IMG/VR virus record: IMGVR_UViG_3300037584_005362
Span: 1 to 46,464 of that record
DNA from: a virus
Length of the DNA stretch: 46,464 nt
Strand: one strand, 5' to 3'
Shown piece by piece: positions 949 through 16,446 of the stretch (position 1 is the first letter of the stretch; each line of letters starts with the position of its first letter). The notes under the pieces were generated by a model. That model did not search any database. It was not told the origin of the DNA and saw only the letters and a list, made by a program, of their open reading frames with translations. The position numbers were made by a program, and so were the translations under genes.

Positions 949-1101
949 ATGAACCAATATTGTGTTAATCACACTAAAGTTATATATGCGGACTCTAACG
1001 ATGAGGCCCGTAAAATACACGATGTCTTTTATGGGACTCCTATATACGATATCAGACTATTAGTTGTTAAGAAAAAAGTGAAAACTTTAACATTTTTTTA
1101 A
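949..1101 (+). CDS. Small hypothetical protein, 50 residues
   Basis: A short ORF running from ATG 949 to TAA 1099-1101, seven bases after the previous gene. The translation starts MNQYCVNHTKVIYADSNDEA and contains an alternating beta-strand-like pattern followed by a Lys-rich C-terminus. The position, close spacing and composition match the neighbouring small genes. Its 3' end runs into the TTAACA boxes of the next promoter, so the two elements overlap. Function unknown. Confidence 0.5.
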   Translation: MNQYCVNHTKVIYADSNDEARKIHDVFYGTPIYDIRLLVVKKKVKTLTFF

Positions 1102-1142
1102 CATTTAAAACTTGACTTTCTCAGCTTTATTTCGTATCTTAG
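1087..1142 (+). promoter_or_regulatory. Strong promoter with two phased TTAACA boxes
   Basis: TTAACA boxes at 1087 and 1098 (11 bp apart) lie upstream of a -35-like TTGACTTT (1112-1119) and a -10-like TATCTTAG (1135-1142) followed by TATTG. The spacing from the last box to the -10 is 37 bp, the same as at 2376, 8373, 9576 and 11812. Expected transcription start is about 1149, in front of the gene at 1207. Confidence 0.75.
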
Positions 1143-1206
1143 TATTGTTGTTAGGGATTTGGGGAAAGACTGAATTATTAAATCGTTAAGAAAAATTTAA
1201 AATTGT

Positions 1207-1575
1207 ATGACCGATAATCAAAAGATAATGAATCACGTTTTGGGTGTTCAATCACTTACTCCTCCAACGGTTACCAAGCCTTGGTCAAAGGAAATGTACG
1301 AATGGAACGATATGGTCGCCGAACAAATGAAGGCAGAAATTCGTATCCGAATCAACCAAGCAGAAGAGATGACTAATGTAGATGCATTAAATGAGTTGAT
1401 GGGTTTATGTGGTGGTAGTAGGTTTGGTGATGGATATACCATTGGTGAAATATGGGAAAGTTGTTTAAGGGAATTAGACCGAGTTCCAAACTATTGGTTG
1501 AATGAAGAATGGGAATATGCCGTTAGTCAAGGTATTGTTTCTGATTGTGTGAAAGTCCAATTCGTTGGATACTAA
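1207..1575 (+). CDS. Hypothetical protein, 122 residues
   Basis: First gene after the 1112-1142 promoter, with a leader of about 60 bases and no Shine-Dalgarno sequence. The product is acidic, with several Trp residues near the C-terminus (WLNEEWEYAV) and no transmembrane segment. No domain is recognised. It probably heads an operon of small genes extending to about 2323. Function unknown. Confidence 0.7.
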   Translation: MTDNQKIMNHVLGVQSLTPPTVTKPWSKEMYEWNDMVAEQMKAEIRIRINQAEEMTNVDALNELMGLCGGSRFGDGYTIGEIWESCLRELDRVPNYWLNEEWEYAVSQGIVSDCVKVQFVGY

Positions 1576-1588
1576 AAATATATTGGTT

Positions 1589-1810
1589 ATGATTAAGACA
1601 AAACAAAAGTCACTTCAAACAACAATTGAAATTGATTTGACCGGCCCACAAGGAAACGCGTTCTACATTTTAGGAGTTGCACAAAACTTGTGTAAACAAT
1701 TTGGAATAGACCACAAACCACTTATAAAAGATATGATGAGTGGTGACTATGAGCATCTTTTAGAGGTGTTTGATAATGAGTTTGGTTCGTTTGTAACAAT
1801 GTATAGATAA
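1589..1810 (+). CDS. Hypothetical protein, 73 residues
   Basis: The frame is open from a TTG at 1565 inside the previous gene, but ATG 1589 is 14 bases after the previous stop and is my preferred start. The product contains the segment IEIDLTGPQGNAFYILG, which resembles short proteins common in phage early regions, but I cannot name a family. Acidic C-terminal half. Function unknown. Confidence 0.6.
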   Translation: MIKTKQKSLQTTIEIDLTGPQGNAFYILGVAQNLCKQFGIDHKPLIKDMMSGDYEHLLEVFDNEFGSFVTMYR

Positions 1811-1842
1811 ATAAATTTTAAAATATAAAAAATATAGAAGTT

Positions 1843-2133
1843 ATGGGAGTACCGTTTAATGTTTATAATGTAATGGATAGTTGTAAAAAAATCGAAGGAT
1901 TCCATTTGATAAAAGAAATGATGGGTAGTAACATTGTTTACTCTGGTGGTTTCAAATACGCAATAGATGAAGTTATTGGTGAGTATGAGGATTGGGACGC
2001 AGGTCACGGCTTTGGGTCTTCGGATTATACATATGCTAGACAATCAATGATTGACCATATGATAAATTACTGTGGGTTATCAACACAATTGAAAACTGTA
2101 TTTAATCCATATCTATCTGTTGTCAAGTTATAA
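1843..2133 (+). CDS. Hypothetical protein, 96 residues
   Basis: Starts at ATG 1843 after an A/T-rich leader with no Shine-Dalgarno. The product has a Gly/Tyr-rich middle (GHGFGSSDYTYARQ) and no evident membrane segment or known domain. It sits in the small-gene operon downstream of the 1112-1142 promoter. Function unknown. Confidence 0.65.
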   Translation: MGVPFNVYNVMDSCKKIEGFHLIKEMMGSNIVYSGGFKYAIDEVIGEYEDWDAGHGFGSSDYTYARQSMIDHMINYCGLSTQLKTVFNPYLSVVKL

Positions 2134-2143
2134 AATCAAACCT

Positions 2144-2323
2144 ATGTTCAAGAAAATAAAAAGCAAATTGTTAACTCGTTGGTTTACTGAATGGGTTGAG
2201 GGTGAGTTCGACTTAGAAACTTTAGAAATCGCAAAGTCTATGATTGTCGAAAAGGAGTTGGAAATCAAACGATTAATAGATGTCTCTAATAGAGTAGAAA
2301 TAAAAGGATTTAGAGCAGGTTGA
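2144..2323 (+). CDS. Small hypothetical protein, 59 residues
   Basis: The frame is open from 2120 inside the previous gene; ATG 2144 lies just after that gene's stop and is the likely start (MFKKIKSKLLTRWF). The N-terminus is strongly basic and the rest forms an amphipathic helix with alternating Glu and Lys. No recognised domain. It is the last gene before the next promoter. Confidence 0.6.
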   Translation: MFKKIKSKLLTRWFTEWVEGEFDLETLEIAKSMIVEKELEIKRLIDVSNRVEIKGFRAG

Positions 2324-2338
2324 AATTTTCTTAAAATT

Positions 2339-2383
2339 TTAACAGTACACACTTCTTTTTCTCACATTTTTTTTGTATATTAC
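2339..2383 (+). promoter_or_regulatory. Promoter with TTAACA box
   Basis: A TTAACA box at 2339-2344 lies exactly 37 bp upstream of TATATTAC (2376-2383), as in the stronger promoters of this window. The -35 region at 2353 is a poor match (TTCTTTTT), so the promoter may depend on the box. The TTTGTATATTA core is shared with promoters at 8373, 18560 and 37261. Confidence 0.55.
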
Positions 2384-2447
2384 ATATGTAAGAGTTGGGA
2401 TGGTGAGGGTTGGTCTAAATAACTTAAAAAAAGTAAAGAACAAAAGT

Positions 2448-2648
2448 ATGAAAGAGATTTTTGAAGTTAAAGTACAAATTGTAGATAGAGGTATTACATT
2501 TCCATTGCAGTCTACTATTGAGGTTCATAAACCAATTAATGAAAATGTACAAAAATTCTTGAATGATAATGCCCATGCAATGGATTTATCACCAATGTTT
2601 GAATTTCAAATATTACGTCAAAAATCCGTAGGATTTGGAACAGTATAA
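2448..2648 (+). CDS. Hypothetical protein, 66 residues
   Basis: The open frame begins at a TTG at 2373, but this falls within the promoter -10 region, so translation should start downstream. ATG 2448 (MKEIFEVKVQIVDRG) gives a compact product with an N-terminal alternating strand pattern; ATG 2400 is a less likely alternative. No known domain. Followed by about 120 bases without a gene that may hold a structured RNA. Confidence 0.6.
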   Translation: MKEIFEVKVQIVDRGITFPLQSTIEVHKPINENVQKFLNDNAHAMDLSPMFEFQILRQKSVGFGTV

Positions 2649-2665
2649 AAATAATTATAAAAACT

Positions 2666-2751
2666 TAGGTAGGGAACAACTAAGGTTAAAAGGGAAGGTT
2701 CAGAGCGTTCGCGATGTTAAACATCTAATACCAAGAGTATATCTCTACCTA
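2666..2751 (+). ncRNA. Possible structured RNA element in the leader of gene 2769
   Basis: In a 120-base gap (2649-2768) a 10-bp stem TAGGTAGGGA (2666-2675) / TCTCTACCTA (2742-2751), with one G-U pair, encloses about 66 bases containing a second hairpin GATGT-TAA-ACATC (2713-2725). The interior is purine-rich and more GC-rich than other gaps. I do not recognise a riboswitch or ribozyme core. It could be a cis-regulatory leader or a free small RNA. Confidence 0.35.
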
Positions 2752-2768
2752 TATTTAAAACTTAAACA

Positions 2769-2975
2769 ATGAACGAACAATCATGGTATAGTGAAAAGGA
2801 CACTAACAGAGTTATAGATTCCTTACTTGACAAACAAGAAATTTTACATGGAAAACTTTCCAATAATAACACAAAGATAGAGGATTTAAAAAAAGAACTA
2901 AAGGATTTAAATTTTGTTCTTACCACTATGATGTTTTTAAATACGGTGTTTTTATTGATAATCGCATTTTCTTAA
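2769..2975 (+). CDS. Small tail-anchored coiled-coil membrane protein
   Basis: The 68-residue product has a helical coiled-coil-like segment (about residues 10-47, Lys/Glu/Leu-rich) followed by a single hydrophobic C-terminal segment (about 49-67, LTTMMFLNTVFLLIIAF). This tail-anchor layout occurs in small phage membrane proteins, including some lysis-related ones, but nothing specific identifies its role. It lies behind the putative structured RNA and ten bases before tRNA-Lys. Confidence 0.6.
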   Translation: MNEQSWYSEKDTNRVIDSLLDKQEILHGKLSNNNTKIEDLKKELKDLNFVLTTMMFLNTVFLLIIAFS

Positions 2976-2984
2976 CATATAATC

Positions 2985-3058
2985 GTCTTTGTAGCTCAGT
3001 TGGTTAGAGCATCTGACTTTTAATCAGAGGGTCATAGGTTCGAATCCTATCAAGGACA
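2985..3058 (+). tRNA. tRNA-Lys (anticodon UUU)
   Basis: Acceptor strands GTCTTTG (2985-2991) and CAAGGAC (3051-3057) pair with one G-U, with discriminator A at 3058 and no encoded CCA. The D-arm is GCTCAGTTGGTTAGAGC. The anticodon stem TCTGA/TCAGA closes loop CTTTTAA, giving anticodon UUU. The T-arm is ATAGG-TTCGAAT-CCTAT. Lysine AAA codons are very common in this AT-rich phage. Confidence 0.95.
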
Positions 3059-3092
3059 CAAATAATTTTTTAACCATTAATATAGATGCTAT

Positions 3093-3551
3093 ATGCAAAC
3101 AACATTAGATTTTCCTAAAAGGATTAAGTTTATTAATAAGTCGGATAATGAAGACCCACAGTTCCAAACAGAGGGTTCCGCTGGATTTGATTTTAGAGCA
3201 AACATTGAAACACCAATTATGTTGGAGTCGGGTGAGTTTAAGGTGATTCCTACAGGTTTATATTTTGAATTACCCAACGATGTAGAGTTACAAGTTAGAC
3301 CACGAAGTGGATTGGCGGCTAAACATGGTGTTACTGTTCTTAATTCACCTGGTACTATTGATTCTGATTATCGTGGGGAGGTTGGTATTATACTAATTAA
3401 CCATTCTAAATATGGATATAAGGTAAATCCTGGTGAAAGGATTGCTCAAGGAGTATTTAGTGAGGTATCATCTGTTGAGTTCAAAAAAACAACTGTTTTA
3501 TCGGAAACTACACGAGGTGGTGGTGGGTTTGGTTCTACAGGTAAGAAATAA
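3093..3551 (+). CDS. dut: dUTPase (trimeric, all-beta type)
   Basis: Deoxyuridine 5'-triphosphate nucleotidohydrolase: hydrolyses dUTP to dUMP and PPi, keeping uracil out of phage DNA and feeding dTMP synthesis. All five family motifs are visible: AGFDFRA (30-36), RPRSGLA (69-75), GTIDSDYRG (87-95) with the catalytic Asp at 90, PGERIAQ (113-119), and the C-terminal GGGGFGSTG that closes over the nucleotide. Length 152 matches cellular enzymes. It stands alone between tRNA-Lys and a promoter-like region, so it may be transcribed with the upstream genes. Confidence 0.95.
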   Translation: MQTTLDFPKRIKFINKSDNEDPQFQTEGSAGFDFRANIETPIMLESGEFKVIPTGLYFELPNDVELQVRPRSGLAAKHGVTVLNSPGTIDSDYRGEVGIILINHSKYGYKVNPGERIAQGVFSEVSSVEFKKTTVLSETTRGGGGFGSTGKK

Positions 3552-3594
3552 ATCCAATTAAACAAATAGTATTCTGTTTTTTTTGACAAAATAC

Positions 3595-3627
3595 TTGTAT
3601 TGTTTACAAAAATTTTTTATATTTATT
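3595..3627 (+). promoter_or_regulatory. Candidate promoter / ATATTTAT late-type element
   Basis: ATATTTATT (3619-3627) lies 43 bases upstream of the ATG at 3662. TTGT at 3595 lies 23 bp upstream of TATATTTA (3618), the spacing seen in the other promoters here, so it may be either a host-type promoter or a late element. No TTAACA box is present. Confidence 0.4.
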
Positions 3628-3661
3628 CTAAATTTAAATCTGTTCAAACATAGGACAACAT

Positions 3662-4048
3662 ATGAAACAAGTATTCACATTTTTACTACTACTAATGGCA
3701 TTTACATCAATCGGCCAAGGTAAATTAACATTTGTTAAGAGTATACAACCGAAAAATGCTACATCTATCACAGCATCTACCGATTATAGCACTGAAATCA
3801 TACCATATGATGGTGATTTTATAAGATTGGTGGTTTCTATTGAAACAAATACCAATGAAAGTATATTAAGACAACTATTTAAGGTAGGTAGGTACAATAT
3901 TTCGGTGATTGATGGTGTAATTACCTTTGATAATCTAAAAAAGGATATATATATCAAGGGTGAAAAACTTTTGGAAGATATTTTACTAAAAATACAAGTC
4001 CCAATTGGAACAGAACTACAAATTGGAGTAAATAAATTAATTAACTAA
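3662..4048 (+). CDS. Secreted or periplasmic protein of unknown function
   Basis: The 128-residue product starts with a clear signal peptide (MKQVFTFLLLLMAFTSIGQG), with likely cleavage after about residue 19; the sequence near the cleavage site resembles signal peptides of Bacteroidetes proteins. The mature part is beta-rich with no Cys. It is ten bases upstream of the membrane-anchored glucosaminidase, so the pair may act together at the cell envelope, for example in lysis or in modifying the surface. No family is recognised. Confidence 0.6.
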   Translation: MKQVFTFLLLLMAFTSIGQGKLTFVKSIQPKNATSITASTDYSTEIIPYDGDFIRLVVSIETNTNESILRQLFKVGRYNISVIDGVITFDNLKKDIYIKGEKLLEDILLKIQVPIGTELQIGVNKLIN

Positions 4049-4058
4049 CACAATTATC

Positions 4059-4913
4059 ATGCATATTTTAAAATTTATAGCTAATTTTTTTCAAAAAAAC
4101 GTACAGTTTACAATTTTTTTATTACTTTTAACCGTATCTATCATATTTGCGGTGTTTGTACATCCACAAGAGACTGAAATAACTCCAAAACCAGTCGAAC
4201 CCGAGATTTATATCACTGATTGCGACACTCAATCGGTTTATGCAGGTAGATTTGATGAAAAACCTGTAGTTAAAAAGAGTAAATCTAAATATTTACGTAA
4301 TGGTGCACCAAGATATAGAACTTGGGTAACTGAAGATGAGTGGCGAGGTAGACATTGTAAGACATCTAAACAACGTAAAGAGTTTCGTAAGTGGAAACAT
4401 CACCAAATAGATAGTTTTATTGAATATATGTCATTCGCCGCAGTCGTTGAATCTAAGGTATTTCCAGATATCCCACCAGAACTTATCGTTGCTCAATCAA
4501 TTTTAGAGTCAAATTTCGGTAAATCAAGACTCGCATCCGATGCAAACAACTTTTTTGGCCATAAATACAATGGTAGTAACAAACATTTGTTCGTTGTTGC
4601 CGCTGATGATAGTCCTTATGACCGATTTACGAAGTACCGTTCACTCTGGTTCTCACTTCGCGGACATAGTACACTACTAATGAGACGTTATAGAAAGAGA
4701 ATTAAAGGTGAACCGACCCTAACCAAGTGGTTATATGCACTATGTGGTGGTATAACTGTTGAACAAAGTAAAAGATGGAGGGCTAGAGGTAACTCAGTTT
4801 ATGCTACATCGTGTATGACTGAGGTATGTTACTCTCAAAAACTAAGAAGTATTATAAATATTTATTCACTAACAGAACGTTGTTCTAAATTTACAAAATT
4901 AGGAAGTGTATGA
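4059..4913 (+). CDS. Membrane-anchored GH73-type endo-beta-N-acetylglucosaminidase
   Basis: Predicted peptidoglycan hydrolase that cleaves N-acetylglucosaminyl bonds in the glycan strand. A single N-terminal membrane segment (about residues 16-34) is followed by a basic linker and a glucosaminidase (FlgJ/LytD-like) domain from about residue 115. The family signature PPELIVAQSILESNFGKS (139-156) contains the expected catalytic Glu at 150, followed by NNFFGHK. A linker of about 80 residues would place the enzyme in the periplasm. A lysis role fits best; trimming the wall for DNA entry or export is an alternative. It overlaps the next gene by ATGA. Confidence 0.85.
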   Translation: MHILKFIANFFQKNVQFTIFLLLLTVSIIFAVFVHPQETEITPKPVEPEIYITDCDTQSVYAGRFDEKPVVKKSKSKYLRNGAPRYRTWVTEDEWRGRHCKTSKQRKEFRKWKHHQIDSFIEYMSFAAVVESKVFPDIPPELIVAQSILESNFGKSRLASDANNFFGHKYNGSNKHLFVVAADDSPYDRFTKYRSLWFSLRGHSTLLMRRYRKRIKGEPTLTKWLYALCGGITVEQSKRWRARGNSVYATSCMTEVCYSQKLRSIINIYSLTERCSKFTKLGSV

Positions 4914-5743: not shown

Positions 5744-5756
5744 ATGATGTATATTA

Positions 5757-5790
5757 AAATCAGTATCATGTAATGTGGTACTGATTTTTT
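5757..5790 (+). terminator. Intrinsic terminator after the synthetase-like gene
   Basis: AAAATCAGTATCA (5757-5769 approximately) pairs with TGGTACTGATTTT (5776-5788) with one G-U pair, closing a short loop and ending in a run of T. It falls between stop 5743 and the ATG at 5809. Confidence 0.75.
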
Positions 5791-5808
5791 CACTTAAATA
5801 AATTAGTT

Positions 5809-6258: not shown

Positions 6259-6261
6259 ATT

Positions 6262-6498: not shown

Positions 6499-6515
6499 AT
6501 AAACATAACGGAAAC

Positions 6516-6574
6516 TTAACTTATGGTTAACACTAAATCGTGATTCATTAAAAATATTTTTATATTTAGTATTG
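6516..6574 (+). promoter_or_regulatory. Promoter with phased TTAAC boxes upstream of the outer-membrane/PiT pair
   Basis: TTAACT (6516) and TTAACA (6527) are 11 bp apart. A weak -35-like GTGATTCA (6540) and TATTTAG in the context ATATTTAGTATTG (6562-6574) follow; the last nine bases TTAGTATTG are identical to the strong promoters at 1112, 9553 and 11789. The box to -10 distance is 35 bp, two shorter than elsewhere. Confidence 0.6.
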
Positions 6575-6601
6575 AATTAAAAGTTTATAAAAATAAACGT
6601 T

Positions 6602-7198
6602 ATGATAAAATGTATATTACTAATATTTTTTCCGATAATTCTACTTGGTCAAGAGTTTCAAAGTTGGAATACATTTAACATTAAAGGAAAACTTGGTGAT
6701 AAATGGGAATTGGCAGCAGAGCCTGAGTTACGATATTCACTTGATGATATAGAGTATTTTCACTTTGATATTGGTGTTGTTTATAAAGTAATTGATAAGC
6801 TAAAAGTTGGTTTATACTATAGAGAAATCTTTGAAAACAAATCTAATATGAGAGTACATGAAATGAGGCCTCACATTGATGTATTCTATAAATTTAACAA
6901 GTTTTTTAAGATAAGAGTCAGAAACGAATATCAGATAAAACAAATATCTGACAATGTTTGGCGTATACGATTTAGACCTACATTTACATACAAGATACAT
7001 GAACTATTCCAACCATACATCCAAACTGAACCCTTTTTTACGGTAAACGGATTTATTAGAAACCGATTAAACATAGGTATTGGTTTAGTACATAAAAAAA
7101 TGTGGTTCAAACCTGGATATCAACTTCAAACAGATTTAAAAAATGGTAATGTATCACAAATACATACCTTATGGATTAATATAGGAATTAAATTATGA
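6602..7198 (+). CDS. DUF2490-like outer-membrane beta-barrel protein
   Basis: The 198-residue product has a signal peptide (about residues 1-17, ending LLGQ) followed by alternating amphipathic strands with aromatic girdles (for example YYREIFENK, FRPTFTYKI, and a terminal HTLWINIGIKL strand typical of outer-membrane barrels). The pattern matches the DUF2490 family, which I associate with Bacteroidetes and Proteobacteria. It is coupled by ATGA to the phosphate transporter gene, suggesting that it serves as an outer-membrane channel or partner for phosphate entry. That role is inferred from context. It is driven by the promoter at 6516-6574. Confidence 0.7.
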   Translation: MIKCILLIFFPIILLGQEFQSWNTFNIKGKLGDKWELAAEPELRYSLDDIEYFHFDIGVVYKVIDKLKVGLYYREIFENKSNMRVHEMRPHIDVFYKFNKFFKIRVRNEYQIKQISDNVWRIRFRPTFTYKIHELFQPYIQTEPFFTVNGFIRNRLNIGIGLVHKKMWFKPGYQLQTDLKNGNVSQIHTLWINIGIKL

Positions 7199-8328
7199 AA
7201 TCGTTAATGAAATTAGTTTTTGGAAAAAAGTATTCGTACCCAGCTCCATTAAAAGTAACATCAAAGGATAAGACATTTATTTGGACTTTGTTAATTGGAT
7301 TCATTGTATCAATGGTAGTAGTTCCATACCCATCTATCGCGATGTGGGTTGGGTTTATTTTTGCAGGTTATGCCGCGATTGCAAATGATAGTATACAAAC
7401 AATAGGTACATTTATAGCCAGTAACTCTGATAAAAAATGGTATTGGTTGTGGTTATTTTTGGGTTCTATCTTTGTAGCTACAGTAGGTTATAGTTGGGTA
7501 GTTTATGGTGGGGATGTAACACATCAACGTTTATCTGCAAAAGGATTTGAAGTTGCACCTACATCTTTTCATTATTTACAATTAATAGCACCATTACTAC
7601 TATTGATGTTAACACGATTGAAAATGCCTGTATCAACAACATTCCTATTATTGAGTTCGTTTGCAACAACAAGTGGTATCGGTAGTGCTCTATTTAAATC
7701 ATTATCTGGATATGTACTTGCATTTGTATTAGGGTTTTTAGTATTCATAATCATATCCAAACTAACAGTAAGGTGTTTAAAAGATAAAGCATCAGAATGG
7801 TGGACTCCGATTCAATGGAGTGTTTCAGGTCTGTTGTGGTCTATATGGTTAATGCAAGATGCCGCAAACATAGCGGTGTATCTACCAAGAAGTCTAAACG
7901 TTTTTGAATTTCTAGCATTTACATCCATAATAGTAATTGGACTTGGTGTATTGTTGTGGAAGCGTGGTGGTAAGATACAACAACTTGTAACTGAAAAATC
8001 AATTGTTACAGATGTAAGGGCCGCTACCATGATAGATTTTTTATATTGTATAATATTATTTTACTTCAAACTATATTCTAAAGTTCCTATGAGTACAACT
8101 TGGGTTTTTATTGGATTACTTGGTGGTAGAGAAGTGGCTATGGCAGTATGGAAATCTGCAAATAATGGGTTTATGGGAACATTAAAGTTAGTTAGTAAAG
8201 ATGTATTATACGCTGGTATAGGATTAACCGTATCTATACTTATAGCGGTTATGGTCAATGATAATGTTAGTTTATCAGATATCAGTATTCAGTTCACCAA
8301 CCAATTAAACAAACTTATCAAACTTTAA
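7195..8328 (+). CDS. pit: PiT-family inorganic phosphate transporter
   Basis: The 377-residue protein has about ten hydrophobic segments and both copies of the PiT inverted-repeat signature: ANDSIQTIGTF (63-73) with PVSTTF (145-150), and QDAANIAVYLPR (221-232) with PMSTTW (298-303). PiT proteins are ion-coupled phosphate symporters of the inner membrane. It overlaps the outer-membrane barrel gene by ATGA, so the two would be made together. It looks like an auxiliary metabolic gene that keeps phosphate entering an infected cell for DNA synthesis in phosphate-poor water. A related anion such as sulfate as substrate is possible. Confidence 0.85.
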   Translation: MKSLMKLVFGKKYSYPAPLKVTSKDKTFIWTLLIGFIVSMVVVPYPSIAMWVGFIFAGYAAIANDSIQTIGTFIASNSDKKWYWLWLFLGSIFVATVGYSWVVYGGDVTHQRLSAKGFEVAPTSFHYLQLIAPLLLLMLTRLKMPVSTTFLLLSSFATTSGIGSALFKSLSGYVLAFVLGFLVFIIISKLTVRCLKDKASEWWTPIQWSVSGLLWSIWLMQDAANIAVYLPRSLNVFEFLAFTSIIVIGLGVLLWKRGGKIQQLVTEKSIVTDVRAATMIDFLYCIILFYFKLYSKVPMSTTWVFIGLLGGREVAMAVWKSANNGFMGTLKLVSKDVLYAGIGLTVSILIAVMVNDNVSLSDISIQFTNQLNKLIKL

Positions 8329-8380
8329 GAAAATTTTAACACTTTAAATTTTGATTTTTGTAATTATATTTGTATATTCA
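8325..8380 (+). promoter_or_regulatory. Promoter of the tmRNA gene
   Basis: TTAACA (8336-8341, with a variant TTAAGA at 8325) lies 37 bp upstream of the -10-like TATATTCA (8373-8380). The -35-like TTGATTTT is at 8351. The -10 is followed by AGTATTAG. Expected start is near 8387, just ahead of the mature tmRNA 5' end at 8404. Confidence 0.7.
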
Positions 8381-8403
8381 AGTATTAGTTATTTGAAATC
8401 ATT

Positions 8404-8728
8404 GGGGATGACTGGAATTGACAGGTTGATGGAAGTTCTAAGTTCAGTATGGGTGATGACCTACATCAAACTTTTAAGTGGCAACACTTCTTATGCAATG
8501 GCTGCCTAATTAGGTAAGTATTGTACACCATATCATTGAGTATGCTTGTAGATGGGTTAGGTGTAAAAGGAAGCAGATGGTATGATAAGGTAATGATAGA
8601 AAACCGTTAAACATCCTATTGTTTATTAATCCTATCAGTTTTGGAAGTTTAGAAAAACTTATCCTACTACTGTAAAAAACTTATTATGGAAACATCTCTG
8701 GACGTGGGTTCGAATCCCACCATCTCCA
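8404..8728 (+). ncRNA. ssrA: tmRNA (ssrA), tag GNTSYAMAA
   Basis: Transfer-messenger RNA for rescue of stalled ribosomes. The 5' end GGGGATGACTGGAATTGACA is the conserved tmRNA start; GGGGATG (8404-8410) pairs with CATCTCC (8721-8727), with discriminator A at 8728. The T-arm is GTGGG-TTCGAAT-CCCAC. The tag frame starts at GGC 8480 and ends at TAA 8507-8509: Gly-Asn-Thr-Ser-Tyr-Ala-Met-Ala-Ala. Most bacterial tags begin with Ala; Gly at this position is typical of Bacteroidetes tags such as GENNYALAA. The ending AMAA still resembles a protease degron. CCA is not encoded. It has its own promoter. Confidence 0.93.
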
Positions 8729-8733
8729 CGAAT

Positions 8734-9104: not shown

Positions 9105-9511
9105 TGAATTTAATATCAACACATCCAATTAAAAAATCCGACTTAGGATTTCACTCAAACCTATTCGGTGGAAAGTTATTGGCTTGGTTAGATGCTGCAG
9201 GAGCTGCCTATGCAATGGAAGTTACTGATACTCCACGAATCGTTACTATTAAAATAGATGAATGTATTTTTAAGAAACCTGCACGAGAGGGTCAGCTGAT
9301 TAAAATCTATGGGTCTGTTTTTGATATAGGTACTACATCCCTTACTCTATACTTAGAGGCAAGGGCACATAACGTATACTCTGGCACTCAAACCACAGTA
9401 TTATCAACTAAAATAAAATTTGTTAGGATTGATGAAAACAATGACCCTATCCCAATTTCAGAGCGAGTTAAAAACAAATATCGTGATGAGATTGAAAAAA
9501 ACAAATCTTAA
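9104..9511 (+). CDS. Acyl-CoA thioesterase, hotdog fold (YciA-like)
   Basis: The 135-residue product carries the 4HBT/acyl-CoA thioesterase pattern: N-terminal FHSNLFGGKLLAWLDAAGAA (about 16-35), in which Asn and Asp of the N-x-x-G-G-x-x-x-x-x-x-D segment are the family's active-site positions, then IDECIFKKPAREGQLIKIYG on the central strand. Enzymes of this type hydrolyse acyl-CoA to free acid and CoA. It is unusual cargo for a phage and could alter host lipid or CoA pools during infection. It is coupled to the upstream gene by TAATG. Substrate unknown. Confidence 0.8.
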   Translation: MNLISTHPIKKSDLGFHSNLFGGKLLAWLDAAGAAYAMEVTDTPRIVTIKIDECIFKKPAREGQLIKIYGSVFDIGTTSLTLYLEARAHNVYSGTQTTVLSTKIKFVRIDENNDPIPISERVKNKYRDEIEKNKS

Positions 9512-9583
9512 CAAACGTTAACAAACTTTAACAAAATCTTAACATTTAAAGCTTGACTTTTTGAGTAAAATGTATTATCTTAG
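9508..9583 (+). promoter_or_regulatory. Strong promoter with four helically phased TTAACA boxes
   Basis: TTAACA occurs at 9508, 9518, 9528 and 9539, at steps of 10, 10 and 11 bp. The first overlaps the end of the thioesterase gene. A -35-like TTGACTTT (9553-9560) and -10-like TATCTTAG (9576-9583) follow, continued by TATTGTAAGGTTG, which also follows the promoter at 11812. It is the most box-rich promoter of the window and drives the VWA gene. Confidence 0.8.
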
Positions 9584-9642
9584 TATTGTAAGGTTGTTAA
9601 AGAGGTGAAGGTATATTCATTAAAAATTAAAAATTATAAAAT

Positions 9643-11748
9643 ATGTCAAAAAACAAATATTCTAACTTTTGGATTGGTGATAACTTTTTCGATTCGGATA
9701 GATTCGATGAGGAAAGTACTAATAGTACTGATGTTATGGCCTTGGCTTCTTGTAAAAGGGCTGTAAAAAACTTTGTTAATATCGTTACTAATAAGGACAT
9801 CAAAGTTACGTTTACTACGGCTGGTGATTCTTATACAGATGGTGAGGTTGTTACAATCTCATCTAAAGTAACTGATAGTGATTTTGACCCTATCGTTGGG
9901 TTGGCTCTTCACGAGGGGTCTCACATCAAACTTACTGATTTTGATGTCTTGAAATCTATGATAGGGGCTAGGTTTGATGAAGATGGTAATTGTTCAAGTG
10001 AGTATTTTATGTTGTCTTATGATTACTGTAAATCTTTGATAAATAAACATAGTTCAACTCCTACATTGTGGGATTCGATATATTACATCACAAGTAAAGT
10101 TAAGGATTTACTTAATGTGATTGAAGACAGACGTATTGACCATTACATTTATACTACCGCTCCTGGTTACAAAGGTTACTACCACTCAATGTATGAGAAG
10201 TATTTCAATGCTAAAATCATTGACAGAGGACTTAAATCAAGTGAGTATAGAGAAAATACTTGGGACTCTTATATGTTTCGTATCATCAACTTGACTAACA
10301 AAAATAGAGACTTGGATGCGTTACCTGTGTTAAGACAAATTTGGGACTTGATTGACTTAAAGAATATATCAAGACTAAAAAATACTACTGAGGTATTGTC
10401 TTTAGCGTTTGAAGTGTTTAAATTGATTGAAGATACTATTCCGGCTTCAAAATCTGATAGTAAGGAACGTGGTGAGAGTGAACAACAAGAGACTGAGGAT
10501 GAATCTAACGACAATAGTGGTAATGGTTCTCAAGGTGGTGACTCGGATGGTGATGATGAATCTAAAAATGATTCTCAAGGTGGTGACTATACAGATGGTG
10601 ATGCTGATGGTGAAGAATCAAATGGTAATAAAACATCCAAAGGTAATGGTAGTCTTAGTGACAGACAACGTAATCAATTAGAAAAAGCCATTAAGAAACA
10701 AAAAGAGTTTGGTAATGGTAATGTTAAAAAGAAACGTCTTTCCAAAAAAGATAATGATGATGTAGAAACTATATCTGAGTCTGGTGTTGACCAACGAATG
10801 GCGGGTAAAGATTATTCAGGTTATTACACAGATGAAATTACAAAAACCAAAGTTACAGTTATCAGTAAACTTACTAAAAAATTATGTGAGTCTAATATCT
10901 TTCATCATATATTGAATAGACCAAATCATTGGCGTTCAGAACGGATGGCGGCCAATATTTCTAAAGGTGTTCAACTTGGTACGGTGTTGGGTAAAAGATT
11001 AAAAGTTAGGTCTGAGGAACGTACCTTAGTTACTCCACGTATGAAATCAGGTAGAATATCAGGTAGATTAATTCACGAACTTGGAATGGGTAATACAGAT
11101 ATATTTGATAACTTGATAGTGAACAAACACAAACCAGCTTTGATACATATTTCTGTTGATGCTAGTGGTTCTATGAGTGGTGAACTTTTTGATAAAACCC
11201 AAACTGCAGTAGTTGCAATCGCCAAAGCGGCATCAATGACACCAAATATGGATGTAGTTATCTCATATAGAAGTTGTCACGAGGCAAACAGAAAAAGTAC
11301 ACCATTAGTATTGATAGGTTATGATTCTCGTGTTGATAAGTTTAGTAAAATTACAAGTTTATTCAAATGTATCACTGCTGGTGGAACTACACCTGAGGGT
11401 TTATGTTTTGAGGCTATATTGGATGAAATCACCAAAGGTGACCCAAGTACCGATAGATACTTTATTAACTTCTCAGATGGAATGCCCTGTTACAGTAGTA
11501 AAGAAATATATTACAATGGGTCTCGTGCTATAGAACATACTTCAAGACAAGTTAAGAAAATTAGAAAAAGTGGTGTTAAGGTTTTATCATATTTCTTATC
11601 GTGGGGTGGTGATTATGGTATTAGTACTAATCGTCATGTATCACAAAGAGAAACTGATTTCAAAACTATGTACGGTAACTCAGCACAGATGATAAATATT
11701 ACAAGTATGATACCACTAGCTAAGTCATTAAACAAAATGTTTGAATAA
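9643..11748 (+). CDS. VWA-domain protein with N-terminal metallopeptidase-like (HExxH) domain
   Basis: The 701-residue protein has three parts. The N-terminal part (about 1-265) contains LHEGSH, an HExxH motif at H90-E91-H94, with E161-D162 as possible further ligands (NVIEDRRID). The middle (about 267-350) is acidic, low-complexity and rich in Gly, Asp and Ser. The C-terminal part is a von Willebrand A domain with MIDAS motif DASGSMS near 504, suggesting metal-dependent protein binding. The layout resembles CobT/DUF2201-like partners of MoxR-type ATPases, and such an ATPase follows directly. Together they probably form a remodelling or chelatase-like machine. Cobalamin synthesis itself is unlikely in a phage; the client is unknown. 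Confidence 0.75.
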   Translation: MSKNKYSNFWIGDNFFDSDRFDEESTNSTDVMALASCKRAVKNFVNIVTNKDIKVTFTTAGDSYTDGEVVTISSKVTDSDFDPIVGLALHEGSHIKLTDFDVLKSMIGARFDEDGNCSSEYFMLSYDYCKSLINKHSSTPTLWDSIYYITSKVKDLLNVIEDRRIDHYIYTTAPGYKGYYHSMYEKYFNAKIIDRGLKSSEYRENTWDSYMFRIINLTNKNRDLDALPVLRQIWDLIDLKNISRLKNTTEVLSLAFEVFKLIEDTIPASKSDSKERGESEQQETEDESNDNSGNGSQGGDSDGDDESKNDSQGGDYTDGDADGEESNGNKTSKGNGSLSDRQRNQLEKAIKKQKEFGNGNVKKKRLSKKDNDDVETISESGVDQRMAGKDYSGYYTDEITKTKVTVISKLTKKLCESNIFHHILNRPNHWRSERMAANISKGVQLGTVLGKRLKVRSEERTLVTPRMKSGRISGRLIHELGMGNTDIFDNLIVNKHKPALIHISVDASGSMSGELFDKTQTAVVAIAKAASMTPNMDVVISYRSCHEANRKSTPLVLIGYDSRVDKFSKITSLFKCITAGGTTPEGLCFEAILDEITKGDPSTDRYFINFSDGMPCYSSKEIYYNGSRAIEHTSRQVKKIRKSGVKVLSYFLSWGGDYGISTNRHVSQRETDFKTMYGNSAQMINITSMIPLAKSLNKMFE

Positions 11749-11753
11749 AAACG

Positions 11754-11819
11754 TTAACAAACTTTAACAAAGTTTTAACATTTAAAGCTTGACTTTTTGA
11801 AATAATTGTCGTATATTAG
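11754..11819 (+). promoter_or_regulatory. Strong promoter with three phased TTAACA boxes, upstream of the MoxR gene
   Basis: TTAACA occurs at 11754, 11764 and 11775 (steps of 10 and 11 bp), followed by TTGACTTT (11789-11796) and TATATTAG (11812-11819), then TATTGTAAGGTTG. Box-to-35 (14 bp) and -35 to -10 (23 bp) offsets are identical to those of the promoter at 9553, so this looks like a promoter duplication. Confidence 0.8.
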
Positions 11820-11891
11820 TATTGTAAGGTTGATGAGGTAGTAAGAATTGAAAATTTTAAACATCTATTATTAAATAAAAAATTATATATT

Positions 11892-13172
11892 ATGTCAAAG
11901 TCTCAAAGATTTGTATTTTTAACAGTTGAAAGAAATGAAAATAAAGAAATATTTTTAGTAGACTCCGCAGGTTCTAAGTTTTTCGTACCTGAAATAAACG
12001 AAAAAGGTACTTCACTTTACAGACGTGCTGTATCGGCCGCTAACAATCCATCTAAATGGTGTTTCAAGGCTCGTATAAGTGGTAATCTAACAAGTGGTGT
12101 TTTAATGTTTAACAAATTACCAGCTGAGAAGTTTAGTGGGGCTGAACCTGTTACTAATTTCAATAAACCAAATGGTGGTTTGGAACAGTATTTAGTTAAT
12201 GTAACACCAACTCAATCTACAGATAGTGTTACTCCACCTGCTCCAGAAGAGTTGTTAAACTTTATCCATTCACAGTCTAACGAATTAAAACCACAAATGT
12301 TGTTTATGACAGATTTGAAATGGAAATATTTGATTCGTAACATCCTTAGAGGTAAGAACATTATGATGACTGGCCCAGCGGGGTGTGGTAAGACTATGGC
12401 GGCCAAAGCGGCGGCCAATTGTTTGGATGGTTACAATATGGAAATATTCAATCTTGGTTCAACCCAAGACCCACGTATTACATTGATTGGTAATACTCAG
12501 TTTGATACTAAAAAAGGAACTGTGTTTAATCCATCACCATTCGTAAAAGCGATACAGACTCCAAATACAGTTATCGTTTTGGATGAGTTGACTCGGGCAC
12601 ATCCTGAGGCTCATAACATCTTAATGTCTGTTTTAGATAGTGGACAAAGATATTTGAGACTTGATGAGGCTTCCGATTCACCAGTAGTAAAAGTTGCAGA
12701 GGGTGTTTCGTTCATCGCTTCGGCTAACATTGGTAATGAATATACCGCGACTCGTCAATTGGATAGAGCGATTGTTGACCGTTTCACAATCATTGAAATG
12801 GATACTCTTAATCTTGAAGAGGAATACTCACTACTGAATATGATGTATCCATCTGTTGATGAAAAGGTTCTACAGTCGGTTGCTGAGATAACTACAATGA
12901 CTCGTAGTGAGGTTAAAAAAGAAACACCACAACTTACGAACTCAATATCAACTCGTTCGGCAGTAGAGATTGGTTCACTACTTTATGATGGGTTTAGTCT
13001 TGAAGAGGCCGCTGAAATAACAGTTTATCCATTATTTGATGAGGCTGGTGGAGCAGAATCTGAGAGAGTTTACATCAAACAGTTTGTACAAAAATTCATT
13101 GATAATAGTACCGATGATGACCTGTTCAATACAAGTGATGACAGTGATTTAGGTAATCCGTTTAATAATTAG
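11892..13172 (+). CDS. MoxR/CobS-type AAA+ ATPase
   Basis: The 426-residue protein has an N-terminal domain of about 130 residues with no clear match, followed by an AAA+ module: Walker A GPAGCGKT (about 159-166), Walker B VIVLDEL (about 225-231), a sensor-1-type FIASANIG, and an arginine-rich RQLDRAIVDRF segment. This is the arrangement of MoxR and CobS ATPases, which remodel proteins together with VWA-domain partners; the gene follows such a partner. CobS-like genes occur in many T4-like marine phages with unsettled function. It has its own promoter and ends in a strong terminator. Confidence 0.85.
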   Translation: MSKSQRFVFLTVERNENKEIFLVDSAGSKFFVPEINEKGTSLYRRAVSAANNPSKWCFKARISGNLTSGVLMFNKLPAEKFSGAEPVTNFNKPNGGLEQYLVNVTPTQSTDSVTPPAPEELLNFIHSQSNELKPQMLFMTDLKWKYLIRNILRGKNIMMTGPAGCGKTMAAKAAANCLDGYNMEIFNLGSTQDPRITLIGNTQFDTKKGTVFNPSPFVKAIQTPNTVIVLDELTRAHPEAHNILMSVLDSGQRYLRLDEASDSPVVKVAEGVSFIASANIGNEYTATRQLDRAIVDRFTIIEMDTLNLEEEYSLLNMMYPSVDEKVLQSVAEITTMTRSEVKKETPQLTNSISTRSAVEIGSLLYDGFSLEEAAEITVYPLFDEAGGAESERVYIKQFVQKFIDNSTDDDLFNTSDDSDLGNPFNN

Positions 13173-13182
13173 ATGTTTATAT

Positions 13183-13215
13183 GGTAGGCCCCATATTGGG
13201 GTTTACCTTTTTTTT
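13183..13215 (+). terminator. Strong intrinsic terminator
   Basis: An 11-bp stem, GGTAGGCCCCA (13183-13193) paired with TGGGGTTTACC (13197-13207) with two G-U pairs and a TAT loop, is followed by a run of nine T. It ends the MoxR transcript. Confidence 0.9.
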
Positions 13216-13232
13216 AAATTAAATATAATGTA

Positions 13233-13532
13233 ATGGATAGTGTAGATGCAAAGAACATAACCAAAATGGTAATAGAAACTCTTGATGAAGAGGGTGTCTT
13301 AGATAACAAATTTTTTGATGAACATAAATTCAGAAGTAGATGTTATAGAGCTTTGATATCATCTGATATTGATGTAAAGGATTACGAAAAAGTATTGGAT
13401 TTAGCTATGTACATAGCTGATAGTATCATAGTTGATAATATCAATTCTACTTTCAAAGGATTAGTAAACAAAGGTATTTTATCAGAAACCGAAAATGATT
13501 CTGGTGATATTTCATATAAATTAAATAAGTAA
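13233..13532 (+). CDS. Hypothetical protein, 99 residues
   Basis: First gene after the terminator; no promoter of the recognised type is visible in the short gap, so it may depend on readthrough or an unrecognised signal. The product is acidic and largely helical, with the segment MYIADSIIVDNINSTFKGLV in its second half. A short MDSVDAKNI N-terminus precedes the helices. Unknown function. Confidence 0.65.
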   Translation: MDSVDAKNITKMVIETLDEEGVLDNKFFDEHKFRSRCYRALISSDIDVKDYEKVLDLAMYIADSIIVDNINSTFKGLVNKGILSETENDSGDISYKLNK

Positions 13533-13543
13533 ATTTAAAAATT

Positions 13544-13915
13544 ATGGTTGAACAAAACTTGTCTGACGAACAGACACAAACAGAAATCGAACAATTGACA
13601 CAAGAAGCTCTTGAAGAGTTAGACAGAGGTTCTTATTGGGTTGAAATGGATGAAGATTATTTCAATGAATTAAGGGAACGTTTTGAAAAGGGGCCCGATG
13701 AAATTGGCCCACGACAGTTTAAAACGTACATAAACAAAGATTTACCAATATATATGATTGTTATACCAGCAGGTAAGCAACTTAATGGTGAACACATTGT
13801 ACAATATTTTCATACAATCGCTGAGGACTTAGATATGGGTGATTGTAATGGTTCATATGAATTGATTACAGAATCTGAATTAGAGAACAAATATAATATT
13901 ATTTATTTTAATTAA
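13544..13915 (+). CDS. Acidic hypothetical protein, 123 residues
   Basis: Starts with ATG 13544 eleven bases after the previous stop. The N-terminal third is Glu/Gln-rich and helical, the remainder mixed alpha/beta (LPIYMIVIPAGKQ is a likely buried strand). No domain recognised. It is part of a run of closely spaced small genes from 13233 to 14642. Confidence 0.65.
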   Translation: MVEQNLSDEQTQTEIEQLTQEALEELDRGSYWVEMDEDYFNELRERFEKGPDEIGPRQFKTYINKDLPIYMIVIPAGKQLNGEHIVQYFHTIAEDLDMGDCNGSYELITESELENKYNIIYFN

Positions 13916-13924
13916 AACATTATT

Positions 13925-14122
13925 ATGGCATATTACATAGCAAAAGTAAAGGTAGTTGTTTCAGATAACAACGGTAAACAGAAAAAGAATGTAGAACAAT
14001 ATTTGGTGAACGCAGTATCAGTTACTGATGCAGAGGCTAAGATTCACAAAGACTTTGAAAATACTGTTATTGATTTTGAAGTTTCATCAGTTTCAGAGAC
14101 TAAAATTATAAAAGTTATTTAG
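13925..14122 (+). CDS. DUF4494-like small protein
   Basis: The 65-residue product begins MAYYIAKVKVVV and contains the segment EQYLVNAVSVTDAEAKIHK, matching my recollection of the DUF4494 family: an N-terminal strand, basic middle, then a YLVxAxSxTxAEA helix. The family is found in Bacteroidetes genomes and their phages and has no known function. The match is from memory rather than a search. It supports a Bacteroidetes host. Confidence 0.6.
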   Translation: MAYYIAKVKVVVSDNNGKQKKNVEQYLVNAVSVTDAEAKIHKDFENTVIDFEVSSVSETKIIKVI

Positions 14123-14134
14123 TGGGGGTATTAA

Positions 14135-14368
14135 ATGAATTACGTAACAGGCTCAATAGTTGTTTTGTCAGTTTTCAATAAATTCAAAGTAGGGAAAATT
14201 ATAGATAGGTCACCAAGTAAAGGTGGCTCTATCTATTCAATAAAAACTGAAGATGGTAGGATATATGATGATGTTTATGTTAATGATTCTAATAACAGTA
14301 TATTTATCAATTCAAGTATTACAAAATCATTTTTAAAATCACAACAAAGTGGAAATAACAAAGAATAA
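14135..14368 (+). CDS. Small hypothetical protein, 77 residues
   Basis: Preceded by GTGGGGGT about ten bases before the ATG, a possible weak ribosome-binding site. The N-terminal half (VTGSIVVLSVFNKFKVGKI) is beta-rich, and residues 20-50 (KIIDRSPSKGGSIYSIKTED) suggest a small SH3-like barrel, though no family can be assigned. Its 3' end overlaps the next gene by 20 bases. Confidence 0.6.
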   Translation: MNYVTGSIVVLSVFNKFKVGKIIDRSPSKGGSIYSIKTEDGRIYDDVYVNDSNNSIFINSSITKSFLKSQQSGNNKE

Positions 14369-14642
14369 GTTAACAAGAATTAAGAAAAAAGTTTTAAGTG
14401 TTTATCCAAAGGCTAAGTGCCTGATGAAAGGAGGTAAGTACTATATATGGGATGGTGCTGATAACTATATCGTGAATGAGTATATGATACCTACACAAAG
14501 TAAACCAGAGATGGCTTGGTATTTCTTTCACGAGATATTAAAAACCAGTAAGAACATACAGAGAACTCATCCTGATAGAATGTGTTTGGATGCATTTGAG
14601 AAAAAGTTTAAAAGAATATCAAACCGTAATAGAAAAAAATAA
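14349..14642 (+). CDS. Hypothetical protein, 97 residues
   Basis: Apparent start is GTG 14349, inside the previous gene; no ATG occurs before 14424, and starting there would lose a well-formed basic helix. The product is strongly basic at both ends, with a Trp/Tyr-rich middle (KYYIWDGADNYIV). The long overlap implies coupled translation. Function unknown. Confidence 0.55.
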   Translation: MEITKNKLTRIKKKVLSVYPKAKCLMKGGKYYIWDGADNYIVNEYMIPTQSKPEMAWYFFHEILKTSKNIQRTHPDRMCLDAFEKKFKRISNRNRKK

Positions 14643-14667
14643 TTACATTTAATAACATTTATTTTAA

Positions 14668-14676
14668 TATTTATTT
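14668..14676 (+). promoter_or_regulatory. ATATTTAT late-type element
   Basis: ATATTTATT lies in the AT-rich gap 14643-14704, 37 bases upstream of the ATG at 14705. It matches the recurring element found upstream of structural genes (22792, 33131, 45851). No -35-like sequence or TTAACA box is present. Confidence 0.4.
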
Positions 14677-14704
14677 GTAGATTATTTAACTTAAAATATA
14701 AACA

Positions 14705-14992
14705 ATGGCACGTAGAAAAAATTTCAAAGGTTCTGTAAATCATATACACGCAGTACCATCAGATGTTAAGAAGAAACAAAACAAATTTGGTAAGAACTAT
14801 TCAAGTATAGATTTTGGGATGTCTGATAGTATTAATGAATTCAATTATAGGGACAAATCTTTGCCAATCGGCTCACTTAAAATAGGTAACCGAGAAATTG
14901 AACTTACTTCTCACGAATGTAATAGAATAATATCAACTCTTGAAAACGCGGTACAAATCCACGACAGACGAATCAAATTAGGTATACAGTAA
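14705..14992 (+). CDS. Basic hypothetical protein, 95 residues
   Basis: Starts MARRKNFKGSVNHIHAV; the first 35 residues are very basic and likely unstructured. The second half contains an acidic-basic helical segment ending HDRRIKLGIQ. It is preceded by a possible late element, so it may be a late or virion-associated small protein. No family recognised. Confidence 0.6.
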   Translation: MARRKNFKGSVNHIHAVPSDVKKKQNKFGKNYSSIDFGMSDSINEFNYRDKSLPIGSLKIGNREIELTSHECNRIISTLENAVQIHDRRIKLGIQ

Positions 14993-15004
14993 TATAATGT
15001 ACAG

Positions 15005-15397
15005 ATGGAACTTGGCACATTTTTAGTCAACGTGTACAAAGGTGCGGTTGACAAAGTAACCGCATACAATGGGTCGGCTGATAGTAAAAGTTTATCGGTT
15101 ATAGAAAATCAAGTATATTACTTAGAAAAAACTCTTATCAAAACATTTTTTGAATCAGATGTTCTTGCATGTGATGCATACATTTCAAAGATGAAGAGAC
15201 GGCTTGATTTGATACGAATAACATTACAATCCGAACTTGCAACGTTTAATGTAGATTGTCAGTATCTTATACGGTTTGTTAGGTTGTGTAATACCCATGT
15301 TATAACTGAAAGGAAGGCTTTACCAAAGGATGTATTGAAAATTTTAAACATAATTTACAAAAGAAAAGGAGATATAATAGATATTTATAAAAAATAG
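15005..15397 (+). CDS. Hypothetical protein, 130 residues
   Basis: Predicted all-helical, with Leu/Ile heptad-like stretches (about 30-75) and a basic C-terminus (KRKGDIIDIYKK). Starts at ATG 15005. No Cys pairs, membrane segments or known domain. It ends in front of the only strong Shine-Dalgarno sequence of the window. Function unknown. Confidence 0.6.
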   Translation: MELGTFLVNVYKGAVDKVTAYNGSADSKSLSVIENQVYYLEKTLIKTFFESDVLACDAYISKMKRRLDLIRITLQSELATFNVDCQYLIRFVRLCNTHVITERKALPKDVLKILNIIYKRKGDIIDIYKK

Positions 15398-15402
15398 GAG
15401 GA
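15396..15402 (+). promoter_or_regulatory. Strong Shine-Dalgarno sequence (unusual here)
   Basis: AGGAGG occurs about seven bases before ATG 15409. Most other genes have A/T-rich leaders with no such sequence, as is usual in Bacteroidetes, so this one stands out. Confidence 0.6.
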
Positions 15403-15408
15403 CAACGT

Positions 15409-15774
15409 ATGATTAATAATGAGTATTGGGATAGTGATGAATATGAATTCTTTAATGAATTGGAAGATGATGATAAACTACTATACATATATGATTTGAT
15501 GTTGGCTGATATTGATGATTTTATATGGGGTGGTGATGATGCTGATTCTGATATATGGGATGAATTGAAACGAGAAACTGAGTTTAGTTATGATACTCCA
15601 TCCCCAAAGGGAGTTAGGATAACTGCTAAGACATTGGATGATATAAAAGATATTGCAGATTTAATGATGATGAACGGTGCTATAATGACAGAGAGTAAAC
15701 TAACCATCACAAAGGAAAATGTCATTATGACATACGTTTTATTGGGTAAATCTAATCCGATATCAATGAACTGA
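15409..15774 (+). CDS. Very acidic hypothetical protein, 121 residues
   Basis: The first half consists largely of Asp, Glu, Tyr and Trp (YWDSDEYEFFNELEDDDK, then IDDFIWGGDDADSDIWDEL), followed by a mixed region (about 65-121). Such negatively charged phage proteins can mimic DNA or bind basic partners, but there is no specific support for that here. It is translated from the strongest ribosome-binding site in the window, suggesting abundant expression. Function unknown. Confidence 0.65.
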   Translation: MINNEYWDSDEYEFFNELEDDDKLLYIYDLMLADIDDFIWGGDDADSDIWDELKRETEFSYDTPSPKGVRITAKTLDDIKDIADLMMMNGAIMTESKLTITKENVIMTYVLLGKSNPISMN

Positions 15775-15860
15775 CAATGTGTCATATATTTTGAGTTGGT
15801 ATACTAATTGATTAATAGTAAGTATAAATTATTTTTAAACATTAAAAAAGAGTATACATT

Positions 15861-16208
15861 ATGCTATTAACAAGAACTTACAACAACGATTTATTAAGTG
15901 ACGTATTTGACACATTTTTAAATCTACCAAGAGAATTTTCAACAGATTATAAGATTGATGGTGATAACATCAAAATGGAATTTGATGTACCAGGTTTCTC
16001 TAAAACAGATTTCACTATTTCTGCAGATGATTTTATTTTAACCATTGAAGGTAAGACTGATGGTCGAACTTTTAACAAGAGACTCAAAATTAATAAAGAT
16101 TTTGATTTATCTAAAACTGAAGCCATTGTTGAAAATGGTGTATTGAATTTAACAATTCCAAAATTAGAGGATAAGAAAAGAAAACTTATTCAAATTAAAG
16201 TTAAATAA
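15861..16208 (+). CDS. hsp20: Small heat-shock protein (Hsp20/alpha-crystallin)
   Basis: A 115-residue Hsp20: a short N-terminal arm, then the alpha-crystallin domain (about 30-112) with the strand MEFDVPGFSKTDF and the family hallmark ENGVLNLTIPK near 93-103. It is an ATP-independent holdase that keeps unfolded proteins soluble; Hsp20 genes are common in T4-like marine phages, where a role in virion morphogenesis or stress during infection has been proposed. The C-terminal IQIKV is a plausible IxI oligomerisation motif. TAATG coupling to the small gene that follows. Confidence 0.9.
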   Translation: MLLTRTYNNDLLSDVFDTFLNLPREFSTDYKIDGDNIKMEFDVPGFSKTDFTISADDFILTIEGKTDGRTFNKRLKINKDFDLSKTEAIVENGVLNLTIPKLEDKKRKLIQIKVK

Positions 16209-16387
16209 TGTTTAACAAAGAAGTTATAAACGCTGGTGATAAATTATATTTAGTGGTTAGAAAGGTTCTTATAGAACATAACCCTATAATTGAAACTTGG
16301 AAAGAACATCTCAGAGCAGATAGAGTTTTTAGAAAAGAACCTTACTTTTATTTTGTAAAGGATATCGTGGATTTAGAACCTAATTAA
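16208..16387 (+). CDS. Small hypothetical protein, 59 residues
   Basis: ATG 16208 shares a base with the Hsp20 stop (TAATG), and the frame closes at TAA 16385-16387. The translation begins MFNKEVINAGDKLYLVVRK and is basic, with an aromatic patch PYFYF. Size, coupling and composition suggest a real gene of the Hsp20 operon. Function unknown. Confidence 0.6.
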   Translation: MFNKEVINAGDKLYLVVRKVLIEHNPIIETWKEHLRADRVFRKEPYFYFVKDIVDLEPN

Positions 16388-16389
16388 TT

Positions 16390-16446
16390 TTAACATTTAT
16401 TTAACATAAGGGAACTTGGAAAAGTTCCCTTTTTTTATTATCTTTA
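16390..16446 (+). promoter_or_regulatory. Promoter with TTAACA boxes overlapping a terminator
   Basis: TTAACA occurs at 16390 and 16401, 11 bp apart. A -35-like TTGGAAAA (16416) is placed inside the terminator hairpin, and the -10-like TATCTTTA (16439-16446) lies just after its T-run. Box to -10 distance is 38 bp; -35 to -10 offset is 23 bp as elsewhere. It should drive uvsE at 16482. Confidence 0.6.
16408..16437 (+). terminator. Intrinsic terminator of the Hsp20 operon
   Basis: AGGGAACTT pairs with AAGTTCCCT around a four-base loop and is followed by seven or more T. The stem's 3' half contains the -35 region of the next promoter. Confidence 0.9.

Follow-up and report, generated by a model that had tools for sequence, protein, structure and literature searches.

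The window analysed here, the whole 46,464-base stretch of IMG/VR virus record IMGVR_UViG_3300037584_005362, is a virus fragment with a GC content of 32% that carries T4-type genes (baseplate wedge, SbcC-like nuclease subunit and primase) together with one transfer-messenger RNA (tmRNA) and three tRNAs. Its plus strand also holds seven promoters preceded by TTAACA boxes, single or in tandem (Table 1), which are the subject of this work. A first-pass annotation had described them as a promoter class whose helically phased boxes would bind an activator resembling a middle-mode regulator in T4, with a different signal, and all of its TTAACA coordinates proved correct. The genes that it placed downstream include an outer-membrane/PiT pair, the tmRNA, MoxR and uvsE; the 701-residue protein, which it labelled VWA, had no match in a Pfam search.

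Table 1. Boxed promoters and the main associated features of the window (positions are those of the window; scores are from the position matrix described in the text).
Feature	Coordinates	Strand	-10 element	-35 element	Score (bits)	Remarks
Pair TTAACA-N5-TTAACA	1087..1103	+	TATCTTAG at 1135	TTGACTTT at 1112	59.2	
Single TTAACA box	2339..2344	+	TATATTAC at 2376			
Pair TTAACT-N5-TTAACA	6516..6532	+	TATATTTA at 6561			Precedes DUF2490 and PiT-like genes
Pair TTAAGA-N5-TTAACA	8325..8341	+	TATATTCA at 8373		14.1	Precedes tmRNA
Four TTAACA boxes, steps 10, 10, 11	9508..9544	+	TATCTTAG at 9576		52.7	
Three TTAACA boxes, steps 10, 11	11754..11780	+	TATATTAG at 11812		51.4	Footprint in alignment A3
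Pair TTAACA-N5-TTAACA	16390..16406	+	TATCTTTA at 16439			Precedes uvsE
Intrinsic terminator hairpin	16408..16431	+		TTGG inside hairpin		Between boxes and -10 of uvsE promoter
DUF2490 protein, putative outer-membrane beta-barrel	6602..7198	+				PF10677, 7e-20
PiT-like phosphate permease	7195..8328	+				PF01384 in relatives; model compared with 6L85
tmRNA	8404..8729	+				
701-residue protein	9643..11748	+				Behind four-box promoter; weak PHROG 'peptidase' match
MoxR-type AAA ATPase	11892..13172	+				PF07728, 6e-17
UV endonuclease UvdE/UvsE	16482..17399	+				PF03851, 1.6e-65

The hexamer by itself is uninformative, since its count in the window (80) is close to that expected by chance (79.7). 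Seven same-strand pairs lie at a step of 10 or 11 bp, all on the plus strand and none on the minus strand, in agreement with the reported stepping of extra copies by one helical turn. In 300 dinucleotide shuffles such pairs numbered 0.15 on average and never more than 2, and no second hexamer of the window shows an excess near this one. The distance from the last box to the -10 element (TAnnTT, of the Bacteroidota type) is 37 nt for the boxes at 1098, 2339, 8336, 9539 and 11775 and 38 nt for that at 16401, as the first-pass annotation had it, but the box at 6527 lies 34 nt from TATATTTA rather than the 35 nt claimed. The -35 elements were read correctly (TTGACT at 1112, 9553 and 11789, TTGATT at 8351). 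The box at 8336, earlier taken as single, is paired with a degenerate copy (TTAAGA at 8325), and the homologue of the single site at 2339 in a near relative, L008, consists of two perfect boxes 11 bp apart. The pair at 1087..1103 precedes an open reading frame (ORF) at 1207-1575. The terminator embedded in the uvsE promoter is consistent with its degenerate -35 and its spacing of 38 nt. Such a compact fusion of terminator and promoter, with a perfect stem and a T-run in the stretch from the boxes to the -10, is shared by at least 16 of 218 distinct phage promoters. A generic sigma-70 scan returned no more sites than it did in shuffled sequence.

Relatives were gathered by searches with the MoxR and 701-residue proteins, which yielded 84 loci, some of them from records of 110-180 kb and a few from contigs fetched twice. 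A near-identity search of phage records with the window had matched a tRNA-Lys only, among the matches listed, and a search of phage records with MoxR as the query had returned nothing but distant ATPases. TTAACA arrays are present in 72 of the 84 loci (265 in total, compared with 0-4 for permuted hexamers). Once duplicates had been removed, 188 distinct pairs with an 11-bp step remained, and in 153 of these a TAnnTT(T/A)(A/G) element begins exactly 37 nt past the start of the last box. The phage promoters also share a GT(AA) at a fixed distance, 12 nt past the start of the -10, which may be where transcription starts or a signal in the initially transcribed sequence. Exact pairs with the 11-bp step occur in 12 of 13 long records searched whole, ten of which hold 9-16 pairs, nearly all on one strand. 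Arrays found equally often away from promoters were to count against the class; in two long records read through, the long ORFs contain no array, and every array is on the coding strand.

A position matrix, a check of the kind that the first-pass annotation had proposed, was built from 144 phage promoters, with the window and its close relatives left out of the training set. It recovers four window sites, those with a -10 at 1135, 9576 and 11812 scoring 51-59 bits and the tmRNA promoter (8373) scoring 14. There is no further window match above 8 bits, and the best of 20 shuffles reached -4. The other three sites, with a single box or a spacing of 34 or 38 nt, are missed by this matrix, which has a fixed spacing. 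An alignment of the moxR promoter from seven phages shows no change in either hexamer but variation in flanks and spacer, and in the alignment of the tmRNA promoter the boxes are kept in L008 and L009 only, L031 being different. Across the clade the genes behind these promoters are chiefly the 701-residue family, the commonest in relatives (53 of 189), UvsE and MoxR. One promoter of several relatives (L010:7339-7420, L074 and others) has, directly upstream of the regular pair, a second TTAACA pair in inverted orientation, the two together forming a predicted divergent or extended binding site. More distant relatives with MoxR or 701-residue genes (L075-L084 and L090) have no arrays despite a similar GC content, which places the promoter class in one clade or host range; the absence suggests a different host or a different regulation. 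The boxes mark a real promoter class, with tandem sites on one face of the DNA, and are conserved in relatives and confined to promoters.

One boxed operon of the window encodes a permease that, by its predicted structure, has the PiT fold of phosphate transporters. The Pfam family PF01384 (PHO4) is matched by 15 of 21 aligned members of its family, and an AlphaFold2 model built from the 21-sequence alignment, with a predicted local distance difference test (pLDDT) score of 83, has as its best match in the Protein Data Bank (PDB) the sodium-dependent phosphate transporter 6L85 (probability 1.00, template modelling score about 0.5). The permease alone gave no PiT identification in NCBIfam, single-sequence Pfam or PDB sequence searches, and a model from five sequences reached a pLDDT of 36.

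The best-scoring cellular relatives of this permease belong to marine Flavobacteriales. The best-scoring one lies in a Flavobacteriales genome of 1.8 Mb, where the sole exact occurrence of TTAACA-N5-TTAACATT stands at the gene of that relative, in a locus that adjoins a response regulator, a histidine kinase and a glycosyltransferase. The best NCBIfam model for the response regulator is PhoB, with a score below the model cutoff, and the phoBR operon of Flavobacterium johnsoniae has the same gene set, several of its genes being phosphate-regulated (PMC8115612). The pattern recurs in 108 of 246 Flavobacteriales genomes, and 35 of 94 examined matches precede genes for PiT, DUF47-PiT, PstS, a Na/Pi symporter or a porin (gene identities are from Pfam and NCBIfam; porins were named by eye, and the one searched had no match in either). 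Most phage spacers begin with AT, the commonest being ATTTC (62 of 188), and where the host spacer has this phage-like AT start, 26 of 28 matches precede phosphate genes (Fisher p 2e-13). The commonest phage site, TTAACAATTTCTTAACATT, has seven host matches, every one of them ahead of a PiT-type gene. Seen from the gene side, 6 of 10 PstS genes have an upstream pair with no more than one mismatch, whereas in random segments the rate is about 1% (p ~2e-9). In Flavobacterium, degenerate tandems of the same form stand ahead of phoB and of the divergent gene next to it. When spacers were scored for likeness to phosphate-gene sites, 70% of phage pairs fell on the phosphate side, compared with 78% for phosphate sites that had been left out and 8% for the other host sites. 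A second host group of TTAACA tandems with other spacers (for example L224, L227 and L231) precedes a conserved gene of about 228 codons, whose product has a Nudix-like N terminus by eye and whose tandems are perhaps the site of another regulator.

Host and phage sites also agree in helical phase. From box start to -10, host sites measure 25-27, 36, 47-48 or 58 nt, that is 26+11k, in a small sample of about 16 sites with a clear -10; the phage value is 37, so that phage and host boxes face the polymerase from the same side of the helix. In phage promoters the -35 element TTTGG occupies the position of the next repeat; in the hosts, boxes at 25-27 nt extend over the place of the -35.

On this comparison of sequences, the boxes are very probably Pho boxes, that is, tandem 11-bp repeats for host PhoB, the regulator of the phosphate-starvation response in Flavobacteriales. 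They are direct repeats with a period of 11 bp, steps of 10 bp being a minority, and the presumed hosts have the motif in front of their phosphate genes. Searches of 12 long phage records, whose controls matched, found neither an OmpR/PhoB DNA-binding domain (PF00486) nor a receiver domain (PF00072); together with the identity of sites and phase ahead of Flavobacteriales phosphate genes, this makes host PhoB the likely activator. This large group of T4-like phages, whose hosts are probably marine flavobacteria, has such apparent PhoB sites at one set distance ahead of about a dozen of its promoters. In the mechanism we propose, phosphorylated host PhoB, the OmpR/PhoB-family protein of the PhoBR system, would bind the pair head-to-tail just upstream of the retained TTTGG/TTGAC -35 element. 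At that place, always separated from the TAnnTTTR -10 by the same number of helical turns, it would recruit the host RNA polymerase. The promoters would be switched on when the host is, or during infection becomes, starved of phosphate, and would drive the phosphate permease, the tmRNA, the MoxR and VWA-like operons, UvsE and small genes.

Several points weigh against this assignment. Among the loci read, PiT occurs only in the window and one near-identical contig, and for most of the boxed phage genes no part in phosphate use is apparent. The host is deduced from the promoter type and a PiT kinship of 51-58%, and the long records may be incomplete, the window itself being a 46-kb fragment, so that a regulator gene could lie outside them. 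On the host side, 59 of the 94 matches precede non-phosphate genes or none recognised, mainly with different spacers, and TTAACA tandems are thus not exclusive to phosphate genes. The specificity of PhoB in Bacteroidota is undefined in the literature found, and a literature search for a Flavobacterium Pho box found none. PhoB of Bacteroides fragilis binds its own pst promoter, in a report that gives no motif (PMC3547664), and in the cyanophage S-PM2d predicted Pho boxes were not always bound by PhoB (PMC10976474). The host-side evidence presented here is nevertheless stronger than a match to a consensus, and falls short of a binding assay.

The 59 host matches at other genes might instead point to another host OmpR-family regulator with a TTAACA-like specificity, but the phage spacers resemble the phosphate-gene class, and we regard this as quite improbable. 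A phage-encoded activator of the MotA kind, with the likeness to host Pho boxes due to convergence or to mimicry of PhoB, is unlikely, if less so: the class is as uniform and numerous as a phage-wide programme would lead one to expect, and the conserved GT about 12 nt past the -10 start may be specific to phages, yet the 12 long records have no OmpR/PhoB-type DNA-binding or receiver domain (a protein of novel fold is possible), and hexamer, spacer bias (AT..C) and phase all coincide with those of host phosphate-gene sites. It would be still more surprising if the boxes were UP-element-like DNA that contacts the alpha subunit of the polymerase without any activator. The sites are indeed A/T-rich, helically phased and directly upstream of the -35, but they are not made of A and T only: both hexamers of the moxR promoter footprint keep their C at position 5 without exception, permuted A/T-rich hexamers form no comparable arrays, and the occurrence ahead of host phosphate genes would be left unexplained.

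The comparison with T4 must be qualified accordingly. What the phage promoters share with T4 middle promoters (MotA/AsiA) is that they form a dedicated class, one that would likewise depend on an additional DNA-binding activator. In T4, the MotA box replaces the -35 element and MotA is encoded by the phage. The boxes described here end upstream of a conserved -35 (TTTGG/TTGAC), and no phage regulator is evident, although no search for MotA or AsiA was made. The earlier proposal of an activator on one DNA face is supported, while its middle-mode regulator of T4 type is unsupported and gives way to host PhoB as the likely candidate.

TTAACA resembles the PhoP repeat of Bacillus subtilis. Bacterial Pho boxes recognised by PhoB, PhoP or SphR are, like the phage sites, 11-bp tandem direct repeats arranged head-to-tail upstream of phosphate genes, the Escherichia coli repeat being CTGTCAT (PMC4415409); the phage pair differs from them in lying upstream of an intact -35 instead of in its place. 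The cyanobacterial consensus PyTTAAPyPyT/A is similar to TTAACA, and control of cyanophage genes by host PhoB is established for pstS of P-SSM2 and for S-PM2d, where RNA sequencing and gel shifts demonstrated it for non-phosphate genes as well (PMC10976474). The likeness to cyanophages lies in phage genes, including non-phosphate ones, that are placed under host PhoB through Pho boxes (a prediction in the present case), and in a phage with no PhoB of its own, as found in our 12 possibly incomplete records. In S-PM2d the boxes listed are degenerate and variably placed and were detected for 7 of 14 up-regulated genes (PMC10976474), whereas the present ones are nearly invariant, keep one distance to the -10, mostly number 9-16 exact pairs per long record and belong to another host phylum, all of this being read from sequence.

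The principle is therefore known from cyanophages; the phage group, the host phylum and the uniform promoter architecture are new with respect to the literature searched. If the predicted role of PhoB holds, the use of a host nutrient regulator by phages would extend from cyanophages to phages of Bacteroidota, and an ordered promoter class readable from sequence would make phosphate-dependent infection predictable across about 70 phage loci. The motif, with its 26+11k spacing rule, also provides a candidate definition of the Flavobacteriales Pho box, none being stated in the literature searched. Should the phages need active PhoB, the outcome of infection would depend on environmental phosphate. 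Whether a whole T4-like lineage has made the host's regulator of phosphate starvation the main activator of its early/middle transcription, so that host phosphate gates infection itself and not just a few auxiliary genes, is a broader proposal to which we would give a little less than an even chance.

Two other observations concern the window. Its tmRNA encodes the short tag GNTSYAMAA and is followed by a tRNA-Glu. Motifs resembling AATATTTAT at 14666, 22791 and 33118 are intergenic, stand ahead of structural and other ORFs, and are possible late promoters.

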